Source of the DNA: Gammaproteobacteria bacterium
GTDB taxonomy: Bacteria; Pseudomonadota; Gammaproteobacteria; AKS1
Direction of reading: 5' to 3'
DNA length: 53,720 nt
NCBI GenBank assembly: GCA_027006175.1
Contig: JALTKS010000074.1
Location: 1-53,720 of the forward strand
The notes below the pieces were generated by a model. That model was not told the DNA's origin, ran no database searches, and worked only from the letters and a program-made list of their open reading frames with translations. Position 1 is the first letter of the stretch; each line of letters begins with the position of its first letter. The position numbers and the translations under genes were made by a program. Below, one piece after another: positions 6,058-23,720 of the stretch.

Positions 6058-7020
6058 GTGAGCGCTTCTTTCCAGTTTAAAGCCCGCCAATTCAGCCACC
6101 CGCGCTATTGGTCACTTTGGCTAGGCTTGGGAATCATGAAGCTGGTCGCCCTGCTGCCCTACCGCGTGCAAATGGCGCTGGGTGGAATCCTGGGCTGGCT
6201 GATGTTCAAGTTCATGCCTGAACGCCGTAACTACGCCCGAATTAACCTCAAGCTGTGCTTTCCCGAAATGACGGACACCCAGCGTCAGGAACTGCTTAGA
6301 AATCATTTTGATTCGCTGGGCAAGGGCATGATAGAAACCGCGATTGCCTGGTGGAGCCCGGCAGCTCGATTAAATAAACTGCAACACGTTGAGGGACTGG
6401 AAAATTTTGACGCCGCTGTGGCAAAGGGCAAGGGGGTCATTTTACTCGGTGCTCATTTCACTACATTGGAAATTGGTGTGCGTTTATTAGCCTTACATCG
6501 CTCTTATCGCGCCATGTACCGTGAGCATAATAATCCTCTGTTCGATGCGATTATGCGCAAACGCCGTGAAAGTTATTTAGACCTGACCCATGAACGCAAA
6601 GATGTCCGAGGCACACTGCGTAGTTTAAAAGACAATAAAGTCATTTGGTATGCCGCCGATCAAGATTATGGTCGCCAGCACAGTGTGTTTGCACCTTTCT
6701 TTGGTGTGCCTGCGGCGCTGATTACCGCCACCGCTCGACTCTCGAAATTATCTGGCGCGCCAGTGGTGCCTTTTTTTCAAACCCGCCGTGAAGATAGCAG
6801 TGGTTATGATTTAAAACTTTTACCGCCACTGGAAAATTTCCCATCCGGTGATGATGTACAAGATGCCACCGCGATTAATCATGTCATTGAAGAAGAAATT
6901 CGTTTACAACCTGCGCAATATTTATGGGTGCATCGTCGTTTTAAAACACAACCGGAAGGAATGAAACGCCCTTACCCACCGCGTAAACGTCGTCACCGCC
7001 GCAAGAAGCAAAACGCATGA
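6058..7020 (+). CDS. Lipid A biosynthesis lauroyl/myristoyl acyltransferase (LpxL/HtrB family)
   Basis: A 320-residue LpxL/LpxM/LpxP-family protein. It begins with HPRYWSLWLGLGIMKLVALLPY, the characteristic N-terminal membrane segment, and includes NLKLCFPEM (here INLKLCFPEM). The catalytic HX4(D/E) motif is HFTTLE within GAHFTTLEIG. These inner-membrane enzymes add a secondary acyl chain from acyl-ACP to Kdo2-lipid IVA. The start is GTG at 6058; no upstream ATG fits the family and the ribosome-binding site is weak. The basic C-terminus (RKRRHRRKKQ) probably contacts the membrane or acidic substrate. It overlaps the next kinase gene by four bases. Which acyl position it serves cannot be told. 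Confidence 0.88.
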   Translation: MSASFQFKARQFSHPRYWSLWLGLGIMKLVALLPYRVQMALGGILGWLMFKFMPERRNYARINLKLCFPEMTDTQRQELLRNHFDSLGKGMIETAIAWWSPAARLNKLQHVEGLENFDAAVAKGKGVILLGAHFTTLEIGVRLLALHRSYRAMYREHNNPLFDAIMRKRRESYLDLTHERKDVRGTLRSLKDNKVIWYAADQDYGRQHSVFAPFFGVPAALITATARLSKLSGAPVVPFFQTRREDSSGYDLKLLPPLENFPSGDDVQDATAINHVIEEEIRLQPAQYLWVHRRFKTQPEGMKRPYPPRKRRHRRKKQNA

Positions 7021-7847
7021 TCCCAACCCGACGCACAGCACATTGTTTTCATGGTGAAAAAGTCTGGTATGCCGATGACTGGGAAGCACCCTTGGCGGAA
7101 ACAGGTATCGCTGAAGGCGATAACTGGGCACGTCTTTGTCCGGGTGAATTTATTTCTGGCGGTTCTCCCATTACCAATTGTTTCCGTGTAACCCTCAGCA
7201 ATGGCGAAGTCGTTTATTTTAAACGCTATGTTTACGATAAACCTCGCCCGCAATTCTGGATGATGCCAAGTAAGGCGGCCGTTGAAGTGTTTAGTTATGA
7301 CTTTATGAAAAACAATGGCATGCCTGTTCCTGACGTGGTTGCTTATGGTGAACAACGTCATTTCGGTACCTTATTCGCTGCGTTTATTGTTACCAAAGAA
7401 ATTCCTGACACGATTAATTTAATTCAGTTTGCCCGCGATCAATGGTTTCGTATGGAAGAACCTGAACGCTCGACAACTTATCAACAACTTGCCGATCGTA
7501 TTTGTGAGCAGGTAAGAAATATGCATGCCGCCGGTTTTTTCCATCACGATTTAAAATGGAAAAATATATTACTGCAACATGATGAGGATGGTTGGCATCC
7601 TATCTGGATCGACAGCCCACGTGGCGCACATGTGCGTATTCGTAAACGCCGCTCTATTATTATTGAACTAGGAAGACTCGGCAGGCTAGCTGGAAGTTAT
7701 TTAACTACTAAACAACAACTTCGATGGCTGCATGATTATCTTGGTGCTACTGCAACAAAAAAAGATGTAAAAAAATTATATTATGAAGTAAAGGATTATC
7801 TGGATCGGCGTCGCCCACCGCATGATTATGAATTACCCAAACACTGA
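7017..7847 (+). CDS. Lipopolysaccharide kinase, Kdo/InaA type
   Basis: A 276-residue protein kinase-like fold of the Kdo/WaaP superfamily. Visible elements are an ATP-binding Lys69 region (VVYFKRYVY), the catalytic loop HHDLKWKNIL (Asp178, Asn183) and a DFG-equivalent Asp199 in IWIDSPRG. Such enzymes phosphorylate sugars of the LPS inner core in the cytoplasm, typically Kdo (KdkA) or heptose. Translational coupling with the LpxL-type acyltransferase (ATGA overlap) places it early in the pathway, next to Kdo2-lipid A. That makes a Kdo kinase plausible but unproven. All catalytic residues expected for an active kinase are present. Confidence 0.78.
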   Translation: MIPTRRTAHCFHGEKVWYADDWEAPLAETGIAEGDNWARLCPGEFISGGSPITNCFRVTLSNGEVVYFKRYVYDKPRPQFWMMPSKAAVEVFSYDFMKNNGMPVPDVVAYGEQRHFGTLFAAFIVTKEIPDTINLIQFARDQWFRMEEPERSTTYQQLADRICEQVRNMHAAGFFHHDLKWKNILLQHDEDGWHPIWIDSPRGAHVRIRKRRSIIIELGRLGRLAGSYLTTKQQLRWLHDYLGATATKKDVKKLYYEVKDYLDRRRPPHDYELPKH

Positions 7848-14848: not shown

Positions 14849-16579
14849 TTATTTATCTTTCTTGGTAATCATGATGTCTTCCATGATCAAGTACTCAAGA
14901 TCAGAACCATAAAACATATCCAATGCATCTTTGGGGCTACAGACCATTGGCTCACCACGGCGATTTAAGGAAGTATTCAATACCACCCCATTACCGGTAT
15001 GTTTTTCCAGTTCTTGAATGAGTTTGTAATAACGCGGATTGGTCTCTTCGTTCACAATCTGTGCGCGTGCTGTTCCATCTTCATGTACCACTTCTGGAAC
15101 CCGGGATTTCCATGACTCATTTACATCAAAGGTAAACGTCATATAAGGGGATGGATGATCCGTTTGCAAAAAATCTTCGGCAACGGTATCTAAAATACTT
15201 GGACAAAATGGACGCCAGCGTTCACGGTATTTAATTTGTGCATTAATTCGATCAGCAACACCCTTCTCTGACGGGTTACCAAGAATACTGCGATTCCCTA
15301 ATGCACGTGGACCAAATTCCATGCGCCCCTGAAACCAGGCAACAGGATTTCCATCAGCAAGTAATTTGGCTGTTTGCACAGGTGCATCATCCAGGACTGT
15401 CCAGCTCGGTGATTTCTCGTGAACTTTACAAGCCTCAATACATTGTTCAGTTGTGTATGCAGGACCAAGATAAGCGTGACGCATTGGTTTCACGTCTTCG
15501 CCCTGTTGCCATGCAACATACGATGCAGCGCCTAATGCTGTACCTGCATCATTGGACGCAGGTTGCACAAATAATTCTTTAACGCCATCCATCGCAATAA
15601 TGCGTTGGTTAAGTTTTACATTCAGTGCCACGCCGCCGGCATAACAAATGCGACCGGTTTCACGAATGATATCGCCAAGGTAATAATCAATCAGTTTTAA
15701 TGCCACGTCTTCAAGTAAACGCTGCATACTGGCAGCGTAATCGATATACGGATCATCGATTTCATCGCCCTTACGAATCGGGCCTAGCCAATCGATTAAT
15801 TTAGAGCTGAAGTAATAACTTTTGCCGTTTTCTTTATGGCGACGTAATCCAATCACATTGGCGTATTCATTATTGATTTTGAATTCCTTGCCATCAAAAT
15901 CAATCAAACGTGAAAAATCGAAACGTTCCGGATCGCCATACGGTGCCATGCCCATGACTTTGAATTCACCATCAAGCATTTCAAAACCCAGAAATTCAGT
16001 TAATGCGCCATACAGACCACCGAGGGAGTCGGGATCGTAAAATTCTTTTATCTTATGGATTTTGCCATTCTCGGCATAACCAAACATGGTAGTCGCATAT
16101 TCACCTTTACCATCAATCGTCATCACTGCAGTCTTACCTTCAAACCCACTCAGGTGATAAGCACTGCTCGCGTGAGTTAAATGATGCTCAACTGGGACTA
16201 AACGCACATGTGCGGGATCAATATTCACTGCACGCATCATGTCTTTTGCCATGCGCACATTGCGGCGGAAACGGCGATTACCATTAAATAAGGCTGTCAA
16301 ACCACGATCGGGGGCATACCAATGGCGGAAGGCATAATGCCAACGAGCGGGATTAAACAAGCTGATCGGCGCATACGGCATCGCCACGATATCAACCTCT
16401 TCGGGGCTGATACCGGCTTGCTCAAGACAGAAACGGGTTGCTTCAACCGGAAAACGGCCTTTAGCATGTTTATCGCGAATAAATCGCTCTTCTTCAGCGG
16501 CGGCGACACATTCGCCATCTATAAACAGCGCCGCAGACGCATCGTGAAACACGGCACCGGAAATTCCAAGGATAATCAT
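14849..16579 (-). CDS. Carbamoyltransferase, NodU/CmcH family
   Basis: The 576-residue protein has both family domains. The N-terminal Kae1-like ASKHA domain contains GISGAVFHDASAALFIDG, AAAEEERF and VEHHLTHASSAYHLSG, with metal/ATP ligands in the HxxxH-type motif. The C-terminal YrdC-like carbamoyl-adenylate region contains FQGRMEFGPRALGNRSIL and YRERWRPFCPS. Enzymes of this family transfer carbamoyl from carbamoyl phosphate to a hydroxyl. In Pseudomonas, the gene at this place (wapO) is linked to O-carbamoylation of the second core heptose. The same role is a reasonable inference here. A 67-bp gap separates it from the tandem kinase gene, the largest inside the operon. Confidence 0.9.
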   Translation of the reverse strand: MIILGISGAVFHDASAALFIDGECVAAAEEERFIRDKHAKGRFPVEATRFCLEQAGISPEEVDIVAMPYAPISLFNPARWHYAFRHWYAPDRGLTALFNGNRRFRRNVRMAKDMMRAVNIDPAHVRLVPVEHHLTHASSAYHLSGFEGKTAVMTIDGKGEYATTMFGYAENGKIHKIKEFYDPDSLGGLYGALTEFLGFEMLDGEFKVMGMAPYGDPERFDFSRLIDFDGKEFKINNEYANVIGLRRHKENGKSYYFSSKLIDWLGPIRKGDEIDDPYIDYAASMQRLLEDVALKLIDYYLGDIIRETGRICYAGGVALNVKLNQRIIAMDGVKELFVQPASNDAGTALGAASYVAWQQGEDVKPMRHAYLGPAYTTEQCIEACKVHEKSPSWTVLDDAPVQTAKLLADGNPVAWFQGRMEFGPRALGNRSILGNPSEKGVADRINAQIKYRERWRPFCPSILDTVAEDFLQTDHPSPYMTFTFDVNESWKSRVPEVVHEDGTARAQIVNEETNPRYYKLIQELEKHTGNGVVLNTSLNRRGEPMVCSPKDALDMFYGSDLEYLIMEDIMITKKDK

Positions 16580-16646: not shown

Positions 16647-18116
16647 TCAGCTCTTTATAGTACTCGGCAAGAATTTTTCTGCAGCGGAGTGTGATAATTG
16701 CTCAATAAATAATGCCTCAATCTCCGGTAATTCAGACCAGTTTCTCATAAAGCGCGCCATATCGGTTCGAAATGCCGTTTCAAAGTCTGACTCAGCATGG
16801 TGTTGCTGCATGGCATCCAGATCAATAACAAACAGCTTTTCATCGCTAAAAATGAAATTCGTCACTTTCATGTCTCCATGGCTCAGTTTTGCCTGAATCA
16901 TTTTTTCAAATAACGCCACAAATTGAGCCGCGGCATTCTTCATCTGCAAAGGTGTTTTATCTGCATCACGAAAAATATGATAAGCATTAATACCCTGAAT
17001 ATGTTCCATGAAGAACCACGCCTGCCTGCGAACCGGGCCAAAACGTTTCTCAAGCAATGCTATAGGTTCAGGAGTGGCAATACCGTACTTGATTAGGCGG
17101 TGCGCATTACGCCATGAAACTGAAGCGCGACTCAGGCGAAAGGCGCGCATTAACCCATGCCATGGATTCTTGATATTATAACGTTTACAGACTATTTCTT
17201 GCTGTGGTGTTTTTATTACACTCACTGTACAGGTATTGCCATCTTTTATGACGCTACGCTGAATCTTATCTGATTCAATGTCAGGCTTACTTAACAGCAA
17301 TTGCATTTCATCTTTGTTCTTGTCACGCAATATTGTTGAGAAGTAATTCCAGCGCTTATTCACTGCAAAGGCAGAACAATCACGGTACGTTTTATCCAGA
17401 TATTTACGTAATTTGTAATCACGCATTTTTTCAACTGCGTGTTTTAATTGTTCACATTCATGCTTATCCGTTGGTGCATTACGAGACTGCCAATAATGCT
17501 CATATAATGATGTGATTAGTTTATCCTGATCTGCGGGGAACAGCCCTAACAAATCGACTAAACCCTGCATTGAATCCTTTCGTGACAGTGCCGTTGCTGA
17601 TTTAACAATATCAGCCGCATCAAGCGTATATAAAATATCTTCACTAAAAATAAAATTCAGTAAATGACAATCTTTATGCCGTATCCCGGCAGCATGATGT
17701 TTTGCTATTAATTCAACCAACTGCATCATTAGCATTTGGCGAGCGGTCTGATTTCCATGATCCCAGCGTTGGCGTGCACTTTCTGCGCCGGGCAATTCCT
17801 TATAAACAACTATCTGAGTTGATAACGCTGCTGAGGATTCTGAATAAACAATACCAGGAGCAGGAATGCCAGCAGAGTGTAAATCAGCAATTCCCTGTTG
17901 TTCGTCCTTCCATTCACGGCTAGCTTGGGCGGTCATGGAAAACAATTTAATAAAAACAGGCTTGTTATCGTAAGTGCCTCGACACACGTAACGCCGACCC
18001 GGCATGGCGCGCACGACTTCATTGCAGACTAGTTGTTCATCACCTATTACAGGCACCTGCAAAGGAACAGACAAGTCATAGGCTTCAGACCAGATGCTGC
18101 TATCAAGCACCTTCAT
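16647..18116 (-). CDS. Tandem two-domain lipopolysaccharide kinase-like protein
   Basis: The 489 residues hold two protein kinase-like folds in series. Domain 1 (about 30-240) has candidate Lys57 (VFIKLF), catalytic loop RHKDCHLLNFIF (Asp149, Asn154) and Asp166 in YTLDAAD. Domain 2 (about 285-485) has candidate Lys311 (VCKRYN), loop SHGDMKVTNFIF (Asp415, Asn420) and Asp432 in VIDLDAM. Both keep the residues expected for phosphotransfer. The family (Kdo/WaaP, RIO-like) phosphorylates LPS core sugars. The Pseudomonas core locus also has a large kinase-like gene next to its carbamoyltransferase, so this may be its counterpart. The start overlaps the InaA-type gene by one base. Substrates are unknown. 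Confidence 0.75.
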   Translation of the reverse strand: MKVLDSSIWSEAYDLSVPLQVPVIGDEQLVCNEVVRAMPGRRYVCRGTYDNKPVFIKLFSMTAQASREWKDEQQGIADLHSAGIPAPGIVYSESSAALSTQIVVYKELPGAESARQRWDHGNQTARQMLMMQLVELIAKHHAAGIRHKDCHLLNFIFSEDILYTLDAADIVKSATALSRKDSMQGLVDLLGLFPADQDKLITSLYEHYWQSRNAPTDKHECEQLKHAVEKMRDYKLRKYLDKTYRDCSAFAVNKRWNYFSTILRDKNKDEMQLLLSKPDIESDKIQRSVIKDGNTCTVSVIKTPQQEIVCKRYNIKNPWHGLMRAFRLSRASVSWRNAHRLIKYGIATPEPIALLEKRFGPVRRQAWFFMEHIQGINAYHIFRDADKTPLQMKNAAAQFVALFEKMIQAKLSHGDMKVTNFIFSDEKLFVIDLDAMQQHHAESDFETAFRTDMARFMRNWSELPEIEALFIEQLSHSAAEKFLPSTIKS

Positions 18117-18889
18117 TAAACTTCCTGATGCCTTTTAATACGCTGAAAATTTCGTCTTGCCAGTCTGCGCCAGCATTGTCGCCAATCTTGCATATTAGAT
18201 TGTTTGTGTTTTTCTTCACCAAAATAGGCTTTCATAAAACGACAACGGTCACTCAAACTCCATGCATAGCTGTGACGATTCAAGGTATCTAAATCACGAA
18301 AAATAGCACTGCTTCTACGTAATCGCTTACGTGCTTTTTCCAGATCGATCAGTCTGACATCAAAACCCGCTTCACTGCCCCGCACGAATAAATGCTTTGG
18401 ATATAGGCAATTATGCACAAGCTTATGCTTATGCAACTGTTTAATGACCACGGCTATTTGTTGAATTAATGCGATACGCTGAGAAATACTTAACGCTGCA
18501 GGCTGGATGTTTTCTAAAGGTTGGTAGCCTTCTAATGATTCAGTAACAAGAATCGCTCGTAAAGAACCGTTTATATTTCGTTGTGCAAAATAAACTGGCG
18601 TTAATGCAGGAACATGTGCTTTTTTTAAGGCAAGAATATTTTCCATTTCCCGCGTGAATGTCGGTATGCCGCGAAAGGGATGCGTTAATGTACGTATAAC
18701 GTGATTTTCCTGACGCTTTAGGAACACCACCCGATTGCCGAGCTCAACCCGACTAACCCCGCTCCAACCACCGCGACGTTGATTGGGTGGCTCAAACCAT
18801 TCTGCTTTTTTATCCCACCAATCATCAAAACTCTGCAAGTTATTTTCCTGCAGTGTTTGTTGCCATTCTTCCGCAATATAATCTTGCAT
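18116..18889 (-). CDS. InaA-type lipopolysaccharide kinase-like protein with atypical catalytic loop
   Basis: A 257-residue kinase-fold protein with candidate ATP lysine Lys58 (VVFLKRQ) and a DFG-equivalent Asp182 in RLIDLEKARKRLRRS. The catalytic loop reads VHNCLYPKHLFV (His159, Cys161), so the usual HxD aspartate is a cysteine. As I recall, InaA/WapP/WapQ-type proteins share an H-x-C-LYPKH loop, so this may be a subfamily hallmark rather than a defect. In Pseudomonas, WapP and WapQ genes in this position are assigned to phosphorylation of core heptose II. It lies 9 bp after a methyltransferase gene and overlaps the tandem kinase gene. Confidence 0.78.
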   Translation of the reverse strand: MQDYIAEEWQQTLQENNLQSFDDWWDKKAEWFEPPNQRRGGWSGVSRVELGNRVVFLKRQENHVIRTLTHPFRGIPTFTREMENILALKKAHVPALTPVYFAQRNINGSLRAILVTESLEGYQPLENIQPAALSISQRIALIQQIAVVIKQLHKHKLVHNCLYPKHLFVRGSEAGFDVRLIDLEKARKRLRRSSAIFRDLDTLNRHSYAWSLSDRCRFMKAYFGEEKHKQSNMQDWRQCWRRLARRNFQRIKRHQEV

Positions 18890-18898
18890 TAAATCGAT

Positions 18899-19582
18899 TT
18901 AGGTTTTCTTTGACAATACATAGAGTCGCCACATCGCATAGTTCTTAAGAAAATCAACGTGACCTGTTATTTCAAAACCTGCTTCGCGTACTTCTGCTTC
19001 AAAGCTGGCTTGTGGCTGTACAAAACGATTCTGGTATTTTTTATGGCTACGACGTTTTTCCAGCGCGGCGCGTTTACGTGCTTTATAGTTACCATCAACC
19101 CATAAGGAAATAATCACACTGTCTTTCGTGACACGATGAAATTCTTTTAGCATTTTCATACGGTCATCACGTTCGCCGATATGATGCATTAAACGCATAC
19201 TGAAAATACAATCTACAAAGTTATCTTCTTTAGGAATATCAAATGCCGATGCCTGGAATGTTTCAAAGCGTTTGGTTACCGTCTGAGGGCGTTCTTGCAT
19301 CGCCACATTCAGCATGCTCATGTTGTAATCGGCAGCTAATAATTTTCGATTGGGATCTTCGGCAAGTAATTCCCAAAAGCGACCTGTGCCTGACGGTAAG
19401 TCTAAAACTGATTGTGGGTTGCCTGCCATTTTTAAGGCTTTACGTGCAATCGAAATTTCGCGCCAGTTAGAAAGGTTTCGCCAGAAACCCGCATTATGTT
19501 TTCTAAAGTATTCACGTGCGTGTTCTTCCGTGTACTTTTCGGAAAATTCTAATTCGGGCACGTTCTTATCATTGTCTGTCAT
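18899..19582 (-). CDS. Class I SAM-dependent methyltransferase
   Basis: A 227-residue Methyltransf_11-type enzyme with SAM motif VLDLPSGTGRFWELLAE, acidic AADYNMSMLNVA and the post-motif CIFSMRLMHHIGERDDR. It sits 17 bp after waaP and 9 bp before the InaA-type gene, deep inside the core operon, so a core sugar or its phosphate is the probable substrate. I do not recall an equivalent at this exact spot in the Pseudomonas locus, so it may be a lineage-specific insertion. Confidence 0.75.
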   Translation of the reverse strand: MTDNDKNVPELEFSEKYTEEHAREYFRKHNAGFWRNLSNWREISIARKALKMAGNPQSVLDLPSGTGRFWELLAEDPNRKLLAADYNMSMLNVAMQERPQTVTKRFETFQASAFDIPKEDNFVDCIFSMRLMHHIGERDDRMKMLKEFHRVTKDSVIISLWVDGNYKARKRAALEKRRSHKKYQNRFVQPQASFEAEVREAGFEITGHVDFLKNYAMWRLYVLSKKT

Positions 19583-19599: not shown

Positions 19600-20472
19600 T
19601 CAATCTTTATTCGACATGGTGTGTTCAATCCAGTTCGGCAGAACCGGTTTGCTACCATGATCATGTTTGTAAGTTCTCAATACTCGTTTGATGACATCCT
19701 GCCAAAAGTCCTGCTTTGCTTGCAGTGCCTGCCGCCATGGCTGACCGGTATAGCCTTCTATAAAGCGTAGTATATCGCCTCTGGTCAATGAGAGCTCGCG
19801 GCTATCATAAAGTGCCGAAAAAAATAGTCCAGCGATATCCTTAACAACCCAGCGGTGCGGCGCAGTGCTACGGCGCTGCACGCGGTGCAAGTCCATCAAA
19901 TACAACTGTATTTTATCGCGTTCCGGCAATCCCTGTTCTGGCACGGCAATCCGGAAATGACATAAATAAAAGTCACGGTGGTTCATACCATTGCCATGCA
20001 GCCGTTTGGCAACCCCTGCAACTTGAGCCAACACCGCGCGCTTAAGCCTCAGTGCCTGTTTTTGATCAGGATGTTGCTGCAATTTGGGTAGCCAATGTTC
20101 CAGGTCTTCGGTATTTTCGATCGCATCGGTAATAATAAAGGAACGCTGAGCGGCGGGGTTCCAGCCTTGCTTACCCCATGCGGCAAGCGGTGTCGTGGCA
20201 ATATTCACCGCAGGATCAGCAAAGGCACGAATCGCTAGCCACTCATTCTCTGCCCCTAATACCGGCATTTTAAACTGAAGTAGATTCTTAACTATCTCAC
20301 CCCAACCCACACCATAATGCGCTTTCATATAGAAATGCCGCCCATCACGCTCAAAACGAAAAATACGGCGTGATGCGACCACATGTTTTACCGTTTCACC
20401 ATCTATACGAAAGAACGCATCCAGCGACGTTTCTGGAAATAGCGACTTTAAATCTTCACGCACACCGATCAT
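19600..20472 (-). CDS. waaP: Lipopolysaccharide core heptose(I) kinase
   Basis: The 290-residue protein matches WaaP/RfaP. It has a candidate lysine in HFYMKAHYGVGWGEI (Lys50) and the diagnostic catalytic loop MNHRDFYLCHFRI (Asp167), followed by LYLMDLHRVQ (Asp194). WaaP phosphorylates O-4 of heptose I in the inner core in the cytoplasm. This stabilises the outer membrane through divalent cations, and it is essential in Pseudomonas. Its start overlaps the waaG stop by four bases, the usual waaG-waaP arrangement. Confidence 0.93.
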   Translation of the reverse strand: MIGVREDLKSLFPETSLDAFFRIDGETVKHVVASRRIFRFERDGRHFYMKAHYGVGWGEIVKNLLQFKMPVLGAENEWLAIRAFADPAVNIATTPLAAWGKQGWNPAAQRSFIITDAIENTEDLEHWLPKLQQHPDQKQALRLKRAVLAQVAGVAKRLHGNGMNHRDFYLCHFRIAVPEQGLPERDKIQLYLMDLHRVQRRSTAPHRWVVKDIAGLFFSALYDSRELSLTRGDILRFIEGYTGQPWRQALQAKQDFWQDVIKRVLRTYKHDHGSKPVLPNWIEHTMSNKD

Positions 20473-21626
20473 GCCATTGCCTGCCTGTTTTTTTCTGCGC
20501 GAGCAATAATAACATCTGCCGCACGTTCAATCAGACTGTATAAATCCGTCTTATCGCAATATGCCGGCCCTTTACCTTTAAATGTATCAAGCACTGCATC
20601 ATTGAGCATATCTGACAACAAACTATTAAATGTTGATTGTTCAAATGGCTCAGGGCAAATCTTACCTGCCTGACTATCAACAACATGAAAAGCGAAACCA
20701 CATACACCCGTCGCCAGTATTGGTAAATCGCACAACATAGCTTCAATCAGGATCGTACCGGTGTTTTCTGTATAAGGCGGATGCACAAGTAAATCCGCGG
20801 CATGATAGAAACGTACCAAATCTTCACGCGCACCGGTGAACACAATGCGATCGGTAATATTTAGACGTTCTGCCTGCTTCTGATAAGGTGCTTGTTTATC
20901 TCCCCCTACGATCACCAACTTTATGTTAGCCGCCTGTTCAGGCGATAAACTTGCCACTGCATCGAGGGCACGATCAAGCCCTTTGGTTTGGAAACGTGCG
21001 CCCACCAATAGCAACATCTTTTCATTTTTAGCGATGCCTAATTCTGCACGAAGCTTGGCAATATCCTCATCACTCGGTGATTGTTCAAATCGCGCGCGAT
21101 TTATTCCGGGTGGCAATAAATGAAACCGCTCGGGTTCTGTGTCGTAATACTTCATAAATTGCTGCTTTTCATTGTGCGCAATTAACATCAATTCTGTTTT
21201 TAAGCCCTTTGCAAACACCGCTGCTTCCTGACGACGAAAACCTAAATAACGCGGAGTAAAGCGATACCACCAGGGTCGACTGCTTGCGACCCGCTCTGCA
21301 TAACAAGGATCACCTGCATAATAAACATCCAGCCCGGGCAGCTTGGTGAAACCGACAACACAGTCATAATGTCCATCTTCTGCTATTGCTGTAGCAAGTT
21401 TTCTGGCCAGGATATCGTTACTGCGTACATTCGTCATCGCACGCGTATCCATTTCATGCACAGTGATATTGGCAGGACGGCTGCCCTGCCAACCACCGGT
21501 AAAAATATGTACGTCATGTCCGCGTTGTGCACAGGCCTGTGCAATACGGAGCAAACTGCGTTGCATGCCACCGTATTCAAAGAACAATGACACTACAAAG
21601 GCAAGTTTGAATTGAGTATCACTCAC
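20469..21626 (-). CDS. waaG: LPS core glucosyltransferase, GT4 family
   Basis: GT-B fold enzyme with the WaaG N-terminus KLAFVVSLFFEYGGMQRSLLRIAQA and FTGGWQG. The C-terminal region carries LLLVGARFQTKGLDRALDAV, HPPYTENTGTILIEAMLCDLPILATGVCGF and the catalytic Glu pair. WaaG adds the first outer-core hexose to heptose II. The frame is open upstream to 21710, but I choose GTG at 21626. It forms a GTGA overlap with the waaC stop, removes about 28 non-homologous residues, and gives 385 residues, near the usual 370-380. It is coupled to waaC and waaP. Confidence 0.92.
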   Translation of the reverse strand: MSDTQFKLAFVVSLFFEYGGMQRSLLRIAQACAQRGHDVHIFTGGWQGSRPANITVHEMDTRAMTNVRSNDILARKLATAIAEDGHYDCVVGFTKLPGLDVYYAGDPCYAERVASSRPWWYRFTPRYLGFRRQEAAVFAKGLKTELMLIAHNEKQQFMKYYDTEPERFHLLPPGINRARFEQSPSDEDIAKLRAELGIAKNEKMLLLVGARFQTKGLDRALDAVASLSPEQAANIKLVIVGGDKQAPYQKQAERLNITDRIVFTGAREDLVRFYHAADLLVHPPYTENTGTILIEAMLCDLPILATGVCGFAFHVVDSQAGKICPEPFEQSTFNSLLSDMLNDAVLDTFKGKGPAYCDKTDLYSLIERAADVIIARAEKNRQAMA

Positions 21627-22660
21627 GACAATACCTGCACTAATCGTTCTTCTACTTCGGCGACACTGATCAATTTCATTGCTTCTGAAGAATGCACCCG
21701 CGTTCCCCATGGCACGGTTGCCGGATCTTTTTTCAATAACGTGGTGACAGCTTCATCGTATTTATCAATTGCAATTTCTCGCTGGCTATAGGGACCACTT
21801 AACCATGCCGGTGCCACTGCGTACAAACCAACGACCTTTGTACCGACTGCAACCGCCATGTGCACTGGCCCGGTATCCGGCGCTAAAACACAATCCCCGC
21901 ACTCCAGTATTGCTGCCAATTGCGATGGCGATGTTTGTGCTGATACATCGGTAACAGGAAAATCGATTTGTTGTTTTATTTGTGCAATAAGCGTTTTCTC
22001 AACCGTGTGCGGTCCACCCGTTAAGATGATCCTCACGCCACGTTGGTGCATTAGCGTAATAATTTCTGCATATCTATTCGCCGGCCAATTTCGTTCGGCT
22101 TTGCTTGCGGCGGGGTTAATCACTAACAGTTTCCCATCACCCTTTGGTAACTGCTGCTTTGCCCATTCACGATCGTCATTTTTTAAAGGCAGATTCCACT
22201 CAATCACTTTTTCTTTTATTCCAATCGCCTCTGCAAACGATAAGAAACTATCCATTAGATGCTGCCTGGCAAAAGGAATTTGTGTATTGGTGAACCAGCG
22301 TTGCCCATCGCGAGCACGGGTATCATCAAAACCCACTTTGATGGCTGCGTTAATAAAGGGGTAAATTAAATTAGTCCGAAGTGCTGCTTGCATCGCCAGC
22401 AATACATCAAACTTTGCATTTCTAAATTGCTTACGAAGTTTTAAATAATCGAGCGGGTTGCGCGGTTTATCAATAACAATAAACTCAACGCCTTCCAGCC
22501 CTTTCACCAAATCAAATGCTGGACGAGAAATAAACCAGGTGATGTGTGCCTGCGGTAATGCTTTCTGTATGGTGCGAATAACGGGTACAACCATACAGAC
22601 ATCGCCAAGCGCCGATAAACGTAAAATAGCGATACGCTTAATAGGCATCGGCATACTCAT
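21623..22660 (-). CDS. waaC: Lipopolysaccharide heptosyltransferase I (GT9)
   Basis: 345 residues of the GT9 ADP-heptose transferase family. The N-terminal motif is ILRLSALGDVCMVVPVIRTIQ. The ADP-heptose site comes late as VLAPDTGPVHMAVAVGTKVVGLYA. WaaC transfers the first L,D-heptose to Kdo. Gene order (waaF before, waaG after, each overlapping by four bases) matches Pseudomonas waaF-waaC-waaG, supporting waaC over another GT9 paralogue. The GT9 signature alone does not fix acceptor specificity. Confidence 0.87.
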   Translation of the reverse strand: MSMPMPIKRIAILRLSALGDVCMVVPVIRTIQKALPQAHITWFISRPAFDLVKGLEGVEFIVIDKPRNPLDYLKLRKQFRNAKFDVLLAMQAALRTNLIYPFINAAIKVGFDDTRARDGQRWFTNTQIPFARQHLMDSFLSFAEAIGIKEKVIEWNLPLKNDDREWAKQQLPKGDGKLLVINPAASKAERNWPANRYAEIITLMHQRGVRIILTGGPHTVEKTLIAQIKQQIDFPVTDVSAQTSPSQLAAILECGDCVLAPDTGPVHMAVAVGTKVVGLYAVAPAWLSGPYSQREIAIDKYDEAVTTLLKKDPATVPWGTRVHSSEAMKLISVAEVEERLVQVLS

Positions 22661-23688
22661 GATGCTTCCAGAATCTCTAATACTTTACTCGGCTCTAAAT
22701 TATTTAAACAATCTAAATGACCGAGTGGGCATTCACGTTTAAAACAGGGGCTACATTCCAACCCCAAGCGAAGTATGTGCGCCTGCTTATTCAGCGGTGG
22801 TGTAAAACCGGGATCAGACGAGCCATACAAAGCAATCAGTGGTCGTTCTAAACTTGCTGCGACATGCATTAAACCGGAATCATTACTCACCACAAAATCT
22901 GCCATCGACATTAAGTCTATGGCTTCCGCTAAACTGGTACGACCGGCTAAATCAACACAGCGATCTTTGGTGTGTGCATTTAACTCCGCGGTAACGGTTT
23001 GATCTTTTTGTGAACCAAACAACCAGACTTGCCCACCTTGCTCCAACCAGTAATTAGCAACTTGTGCGTAATACACGCTGGGCCAGCGCTTGGCTGCACC
23101 GTATTCTGCGCCGGGACAAAGCACCATGATACGAGCATCACTATATAAGGAATGATTTTTACAGGCATCGGCAATGCCTTTGTCTGTCACTTGTAATTTT
23201 GGAATCGGTGTTTCTGATGGTAAGTCAGTCACATTGGCGGGATAGGCATGCGCGCAAAATCGCTGCACCGTCATTGGTAAGGCTTGTTTATCCAGTTTAC
23301 GTGCGTCATTGAGTAAACCGTAACGTGCTTCACCTATGTTTCCGGTACGAACAGGTATGTTTGCGAAAAAAGGTACTAAGGCTGATTTCCAGGAATTAGG
23401 TAATACGATTGCCTGCGTGTAATGATTTTGTCGTAAATCTTTACCGAGTTCTCGCCGCTTAAAGAAACCAAACTCACCGTGCCCCAGTGTCATATCAATT
23501 GCTGCATTTACTTCGGGCATTCTTTCTAATAATGGCCGACTCCATGCCGGTGCTAATACATCAATCGAACAATCCCGGTTACGTTGTTGCAAGGTCATAA
23601 ACAGACTTTGCGCCATGACCATATCGCCGACCCATGAAGGGCCAACAACCAGGATGTTTTGTTCTGTCTGTGAGGAAGCTGCTGACAT
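22657..23688 (-). CDS. waaF: Lipopolysaccharide heptosyltransferase II (GT9)
   Basis: From ATG 23688 the product is 343 residues, beginning near NILVVGPSWVGDMVMAQSLFMTLQ, the diagnostic WaaF N-terminus. The ADP-heptose site appears as VVSNDSGLMHVAASLERPLIALYGSSDPGFTPP. The C-terminus has CSPCFKRECPLGHLDCL. WaaF adds the second heptose to heptose I. A TTG at 23718 would add ten residues, but it lies inside a hairpin and those residues do not fit the family. No Shine-Dalgarno sequence is apparent before either start. It overlaps waaC by four bases and heads the run of waa genes. Confidence 0.94.
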   Translation of the reverse strand: MSAASSQTEQNILVVGPSWVGDMVMAQSLFMTLQQRNRDCSIDVLAPAWSRPLLERMPEVNAAIDMTLGHGEFGFFKRRELGKDLRQNHYTQAIVLPNSWKSALVPFFANIPVRTGNIGEARYGLLNDARKLDKQALPMTVQRFCAHAYPANVTDLPSETPIPKLQVTDKGIADACKNHSLYSDARIMVLCPGAEYGAAKRWPSVYYAQVANYWLEQGGQVWLFGSQKDQTVTAELNAHTKDRCVDLAGRTSLAEAIDLMSMADFVVSNDSGLMHVAASLERPLIALYGSSDPGFTPPLNKQAHILRLGLECSPCFKRECPLGHLDCLNNLEPSKVLEILEAS

Positions 23689-23693
23689 AAATG

Positions 23694-23720
23694 CGTTGCT
23701 GCGTTTAATCCGCAGCAATG
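23694..23720 (-). promoter_or_regulatory. Leader hairpin directly upstream of waaF
   Basis: CGTTGCTGCG and CGCAGCAATG form a 10-bp stem (nine Watson-Crick pairs and one G-T wobble) with a 7-nt loop. It fills the gap between the zinc-finger stop and the waaF ATG, ending 5 bp before the start codon. There is no T-run, so it looks more like a translational or mRNA-processing element than a terminator. Confidence 0.45.

Follow-up and report, generated by a model that had tools for sequence, protein, structure and literature searches.

A predicted two-domain kinase encoded in a lipopolysaccharide core locus of a gammaproteobacterium

The core locus and the tandem gene

The gene described here lies at positions 16647-18116 of the window, which is the whole stretch of DNA that was analysed (53,720 nucleotides, contig JALTKS010000074.1). 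The initial annotation had given this open reading frame of 489 residues exactly; we add that it is read on the minus strand, from 18116 to 16647, while the plus strand of the same interval is full of stops. The gene start is backed by a one-base overlap with the upstream gene (TAATG) and by an AGGA-type ribosome site. The order of transcription is waaF, waaC, waaG, waaP, methyltransferase, WapQ/InaA-type gene, tandem gene, carbamoyltransferase and glycosyltransferase. The features of the locus are as follows.

20469..23718, minus strand: waaG, waaC and waaF, core glycosyltransferases, upstream and in the same direction (labels from homology to core loci and gene order)
19600..20472, minus strand: WaaP, heptose I kinase (NF011703, 264.7 bits; cut-off 170)
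18899..19582, minus strand: class I methyltransferase, in the position of Pseudomonas WapP
18116..18889, minus strand: WapQ/InaA-type protein, upstream overlapping gene, with the catalytic Asp replaced by Cys (HNCLYPKH, 18392-18415)
16647..18116, minus strand: tandem LPS-kinase gene encoding a PA5006-type D1-D2 protein, 489 residues plus stop
14849..16579, minus strand: carbamoyltransferase (wapO-like), next gene downstream of the tandem gene

This gene order is that of the published Pseudomonas core locus, in which the same slot is occupied by PA5006 (PMC8005017), except that the window has a methyltransferase where Pseudomonas has wapP. A methyltransferase in the wapP position of a core operon was also observed in loci L048 and L032. 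Outside the operon, the window carries another Kdo/WaaP-type kinase at 7017-7847 on the plus strand, whose HHDLKWKN loop is intact; from the published locus, it is possibly the counterpart of PA4998. As a test for mobile or plasmid origin, plasmid matches were sought for the tandem-gene locus and none was found.

Both halves are predicted to adopt a kinase fold

The protein consists of two domains, D1 and D2.

17367..18116, minus strand: D1, N-terminal kinase domain, about residues 1-250, structurally nearest to Rio1 and also to APH(3')-Ia
16650..17366, minus strand: D2, C-terminal kinase domain, about residues 251-489, structurally nearest to PRPK/Bud32 and WaaP

The AlphaFold model, made with 74 aligned sequences, has a mean pLDDT of 96 and a pTM of 0.92, and no residue falls below 70. 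When the model was compared with solved structures by VIA-align, D1 matched Rio1 (Z 15.0, rmsd 4.0, 193 aligned) and APH(3')-Ia (Z 14.1, rmsd 3.9, 199 aligned). D2 matched human PRPK (Z 18.0, rmsd 3.6, 205 aligned) and the WaaP crystal structure 6dfl (Z 17.6, rmsd 3.2, 209 aligned), and these two neighbours are tied within 1 Z unit. The initial annotation had proposed two kinase folds. This proposal was confirmed at the level of prediction, as both folds, not only one, are complete in the predicted structure. We also considered a single degenerate fold, which was ruled out by the model together with the alignment of both halves to solved kinases.

Each half scored above the cut-off of the Kdo/WaaP family PF06293 (21.3 bits): D2 reached 44.0 bits and D1 34.3. 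All 74 members of alignment A3, which was built from 73 of 79 loci, match this family at E 0.001 or better. The tandem did not reach the cut-offs of three more specific models, namely the WaaP/RfaP equivalog NF011703 (36.8 bits, cut-off 170), the KdkA Kdo kinase equivalog NF002475 (43.0 bits, cut-off 142) and Bud32 TIGR03724 (55.2 bits, cut-off 125). The Bud32 and Kdo kinase models were the best-scoring NCBIfam models, with the top-scoring stretch in D2, yet the scores were far below their cut-offs. WaaP/RfaP (PDB 6dfl) resembles the tandem in fold (as seen with D2), Pfam family, locus and fusions, but the tandem is far under the WaaP equivalog cut-off; the Mg-loop position is His in WaaP and Asn in both D1 and D2. 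KdkA and Bud32/PRPK are closest to D2 in profile and fold, but D2 is far under their cut-offs and lacks the alphaC Glu. KdkA and Bud32 have this Glu, and KdkA is a single-domain protein.

These similarities bear on the nature of the acceptor. An acceptor other than heptose (Kdo or a different sugar, or else a protein belonging to the core-assembly complex) would agree with the top rank of the Bud32 model (55 bits) and the Kdo kinase model (43 bits), each far under its cut-off, and with the structural proximity of D2 to PRPK/Bud32 (Z 18). We regard such an acceptor as most improbable, because the gene lies in a core locus, relatives are fused to WaaP, and D2 matches WaaP as well as it matches PRPK to within 1 Z unit (Z 17.6).

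Catalytic residues are conserved in both halves

The catalytic loops named in the initial annotation, HKDCHLLNF from residue 147 (D149, N154 and downstream D166) and HGDMKVTNF from residue 413 (D415, N420 and downstream D432), were found as listed there. The catalytic features are as follows.

17946..17948, minus strand: D1 beta3 Lys57, 79/79 aligned
17655..17678, minus strand: D1 catalytic loop H147-N154 (HKDCHLLN), from the sequence and its relatives
17619..17621, minus strand: D1 DFG-like Asp166, 80/80
17184..17186, minus strand: D2 beta3 Lys311, 62/62
16857..16880, minus strand: D2 catalytic loop H413-N420 (HGDMKVTN), with H413, D415 and N420 in 62/62 similarity-only relatives
16821..16823, minus strand: D2 DFG-like Asp432, 62/62

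Conservation was counted in two sets. Set 1 consists of the window protein and 79 relatives from a named genome collection, with L094 left out for its unknown residues. Its relatives were picked by a pattern lying in D2, so that D2 counts on this set are biased and D1 counts are unbiased. Set 2 consists of relatives gathered by overall similarity alone.

The active-kinase residues of D1 are all present in the window protein (K57, E72, D149, N154, D166). In set 1, D149, N154 and D166 are found in 80/80 sequences and K57 in 79/79 aligned, and position 72 is acidic in 79/80. In set 2, Asp149 is kept in 65/66, and Asn154 and Asp166 in 66/66. This conservation of D1 is far beyond chance. The His of the HRD motif is replaced by Gln in 71/80 sequences of set 1, and the window protein has His. 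Asn185, which is near-invariant in set 1 (76/80), is Gly in the window protein.

D2 of the window protein has the beta3 Lys, HxD Asp, Mg Asn and DFG Asp of active kinases (K311, D415, N420, D432). Lys311, His413, Asp415, Lys417, Asn420, Asp432 and Asp434 are conserved in 62/62 sequences of set 2. Furthermore, K311, H413, D415, N420, D432 and D434 are kept in 17/17 D2-type sequences that have no full D1, one of which (L106) is doubtful. As far as these alignments indicate, the catalytic residues of either half are lost almost never. The alphaC Glu was also sought in D2. Its position, placed by profile alignment to WaaP, is Ser334 in the window protein, and no acidic residue was found there in 62/62 D1-D2 relatives of set 2 (54 Ser, 6 Ala, 1 Cys, 1 Tyr).

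The absence of this Glu raises the question whether only one half is an enzyme and the other, likelier D2, is a kinase fold with a regulatory or substrate-holding role. TYK2 and JAK pseudokinase-kinase tandems are among the Foldseek matches, which would fit such an arrangement, although these matches reflect only the presence of two kinase folds per chain. It has been reported that the WaaP mutant E78A, in which the corresponding Glu is changed, still supports growth, with a 128-fold EDTA shift (PMC6147952); the missing Glu in D2 therefore does not exclude catalysis. The Lys, HxD Asp, Asn and DFG Asp of D2 are invariant not only in the tandems but also in the 17 sequences that have no full D1 to regulate, and D1 retains all of its own catalytic residues. 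A single active half is thus rather unlikely. The earlier proposal that both halves are active can be upheld in part: the conservation of catalytic residues favours it, whereas the missing alphaC Glu of D2 and the Gly at D1 position 185 of the window protein weaken it.

If both halves are active, they might serve one position in series, the first adding a phosphate and the second extending it to a di- or triphosphate, as in Pseudomonas cores. Heptose di- and triphosphates have been described in the cores of P. aeruginosa and P. syringae (PMC8005017, PMC7168646), where the available text names no enzyme for them, and a basic strand of D2, KRYNIK, is invariant and lies near R330. No sequence feature separates a phosphate from a hydroxyl acceptor, and we consider action in series very unlikely.

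Distribution and history of the two domains

Relatives were searched for in a collection of genome contigs in two ways. A scan with the single protein found no relative, and an alignment-based scan found 484, of which 80 were kept. The kept relatives include Gammaproteobacteria, Methylophilaceae and Desulfobacterota, and in 80/80 the D1 and D2 searches land in a single open frame. The D1-D2 tandem is found in Gammaproteobacteria, Betaproteobacteria and Desulfobacterota, and across relatives it usually adjoins waaP and often wapO. Some match was present in 54/369 genomes of the class and in 91/293 genomes of the order of a Parendozoicomonas genome; the weaker matches in these two scans are probably other kinases.

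Architectures were counted over all fetched loci as open reading frames, not de-duplicated. D1-D2 was found in 142 (including L031 and L165, whose D1 score is at remnant level), WaaP-D2 in 6, WaaP-D1-D2 in 5 and D2 alone in 9 (including the doubtful weak match L106). Several lineages thus retain D2 but have no full D1, and D2 there stands alone or is fused to WaaP. In L161, L163, L164, L165 and L166, D2 genes have 100-160 additional N-terminal residues and no full D1; these residues are possibly a remnant of the D1 C-lobe, as the match ranges begin at 155-227. Strong D1 without D2 was not seen in these loci: single-D1 matches had at most 56 bits, and the 56-bit one was cut by a contig end. Some lineages have lost D1, which is therefore dispensable there, a point against a kinase with two active sites.

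Profile comparison gave scores of 94.5 for D1-D2, 102.5 for D1-WaaP, 113.7 for D1-WapQ, 121.7 for D2-WapQ and 92.6 for D2-WaaP. A recent tandem duplication was ruled out, because the D1-D2 score is no higher than those of D1-WaaP, D1-WapQ and D2-WapQ. As the two domains resemble one another no more than they resemble WaaP or WapQ, the tandem arose from an old joining of two branches or from a very old duplication. The initial annotation described the halves as diverged copies. They do differ, but the profile comparison indicates that they are better described as separate old branches of the family. Pairwise distances of D1 and D2 are correlated (Mantel r 0.85; 0/2000 permutations as high), and this indicates that the two halves have been inherited together and have co-evolved.

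The WapQ/InaA-type neighbour

The InaA/WapQ protein encoded just upstream belongs to the same Pfam family as the tandem, and its gene overlaps the tandem gene by one base. In contrast to D1 and D2, which retain the catalytic Asp, this residue is missing in 28 of the 75 open reading frames for which the wapQ HMM was the sole match (46 have it and 1 is unclear). The frames without Asp mostly have InaA-type loops, and they keep the beta3 Lys (27/27 aligned) and the DFG Asp (28/28). Asp is also absent from this position in the wapQ-slot proteins of all six Pseudomonas-order genomes, whose loop reads HGCFYPKH, and the InaA loop of E. coli K-12 likewise has none (HGCCYVRH). The wapP-type proteins of the same six loci have HNDLKWRN. 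WapQ/InaA-type proteins may therefore be pseudokinases, judging from their loops. This comparison casts doubt on WapQ as a kinase and makes the D1-D2 tandem, as far as sequence can tell, the better candidate for unassigned core phosphates. A neighbour of this type without Asp was found in 20/99 D1-D2 loci versus 0/14 loci without a full D1 (Fisher p 0.07, relatedness ignored; loci with fewer than 1400 upstream bases left out).

It is conceivable, though distinctly unlikely, that D1-D2 makes the inner-core phosphates credited to WapQ. In this scenario, the Asp-less WapQ/InaA-type proteins would serve as pseudokinase partners, holding or activating D1, and both sites together would build heptose di- and triphosphates.

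Relationship to PA5006

PA5006/PSPTO_4997 resembles the window gene in its slot between wapQ and wapO and in its length. The window gene has the PA5006-type architecture, that is, D1-D2 in a waaP locus before wapO. In six genomes (L147, L151-L155), D1-D2 follows a wapP-type and a wapQ-type gene, in that order, which places it in the PA5006 slot; waaP lies upstream in 5/6, the stretch of L147 being too short. One of these D1-D2 proteins shares 30% identity with the window protein across 480 columns. Judged by position and length, PA5006 would belong to the D1-D2 family.

The initial annotation suspected a related gene in Pseudomonas core loci, and this gene is indeed in print. PA5006 is tabulated as a kinase (PMC8005017), and it has been named a putative LPS kinase that self-associates in two-hybrid tests (PMC8707732). 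In the same work, fragment 300-493 of PA5006 bound the transporter PA2576 (PMC8707732); should the domain boundaries correspond, this fragment would represent D2. PA5006 also appears in expression tables (PMC5348532, PMC9866376). The family is already known as a putative kinase, and the tandem is not peculiar to the window genome. The dual activity was said to be undescribed, and this agrees with our searches of mainly open literature, in which no statement of two kinase domains or of a substrate for PA5006 appeared. Likewise, neither is described in the accessible text of PMC8982409, PMC7168646, PMC1262709, PMC4702295, PMC11167607 and PMC9138534.

Proposed function

The outer membrane is held together by the phosphates of the inner core, which in P. 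aeruginosa are regarded as essential (PMC6147952, PMC8005017). In the accessible parts of the literature examined, no enzyme is named for several inner-core phosphates or for the di- and triphosphates. The tandem probably adds phosphates to the LPS inner core, and the candidate that emerges from our comparison is a two-site enzyme whose key residues can be named (K57/D149, K311/D415). Our favoured reading, which we hold with reasonable though limited confidence, is that the tandem is a cytoplasmic kinase of the LPS inner core with two active sites. With a Lys, Asn and Asp of its own, each half would bind ATP-Mg and phosphorylate the nascent lipid A-core at the inner membrane, acting either after WaaP or alongside it. 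The likely acceptors would be inner-core heptoses. D2 may be the constant activity, since it persists in lineages lacking D1 and also occurs in direct fusion with WaaP. D1 may be an additional site with a specialisation of its own, which has remained attached to D2. The predicted two folds, family membership, residue conservation, locus and fusions presented here support this reading, and we infer catalysis by both halves, LPS as the substrate and the choice of hydroxyls. The initial annotation suggested that the two sites may serve different core positions, and we regard this as a reasonable guess.

WaaP is joined to D2 or D1-D2 in 11 open reading frames. Those with three kinases, WaaP-D1-D2, occur in L007, L013, L022, L027 and L041. 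A WaaG-like glycosyltransferase fused to WaaP in one open reading frame was also observed (L084:1340-3412, L167:1143-3293, L168:4875-6998). Together, the WaaG-WaaP, WaaP-D2 and WaaP-D1-D2 fusions suggest a physically linked inner-core assembly line. Two further kinds of long frame were seen among the loci. L170:3769-6147 is an open reading frame of 793 residues with D1-D2 followed by a third kinase-like stretch. In L049, L054, L059, L063, L068, L078 and others, the waaG open frame has 750-800 residues, roughly double what is usual.
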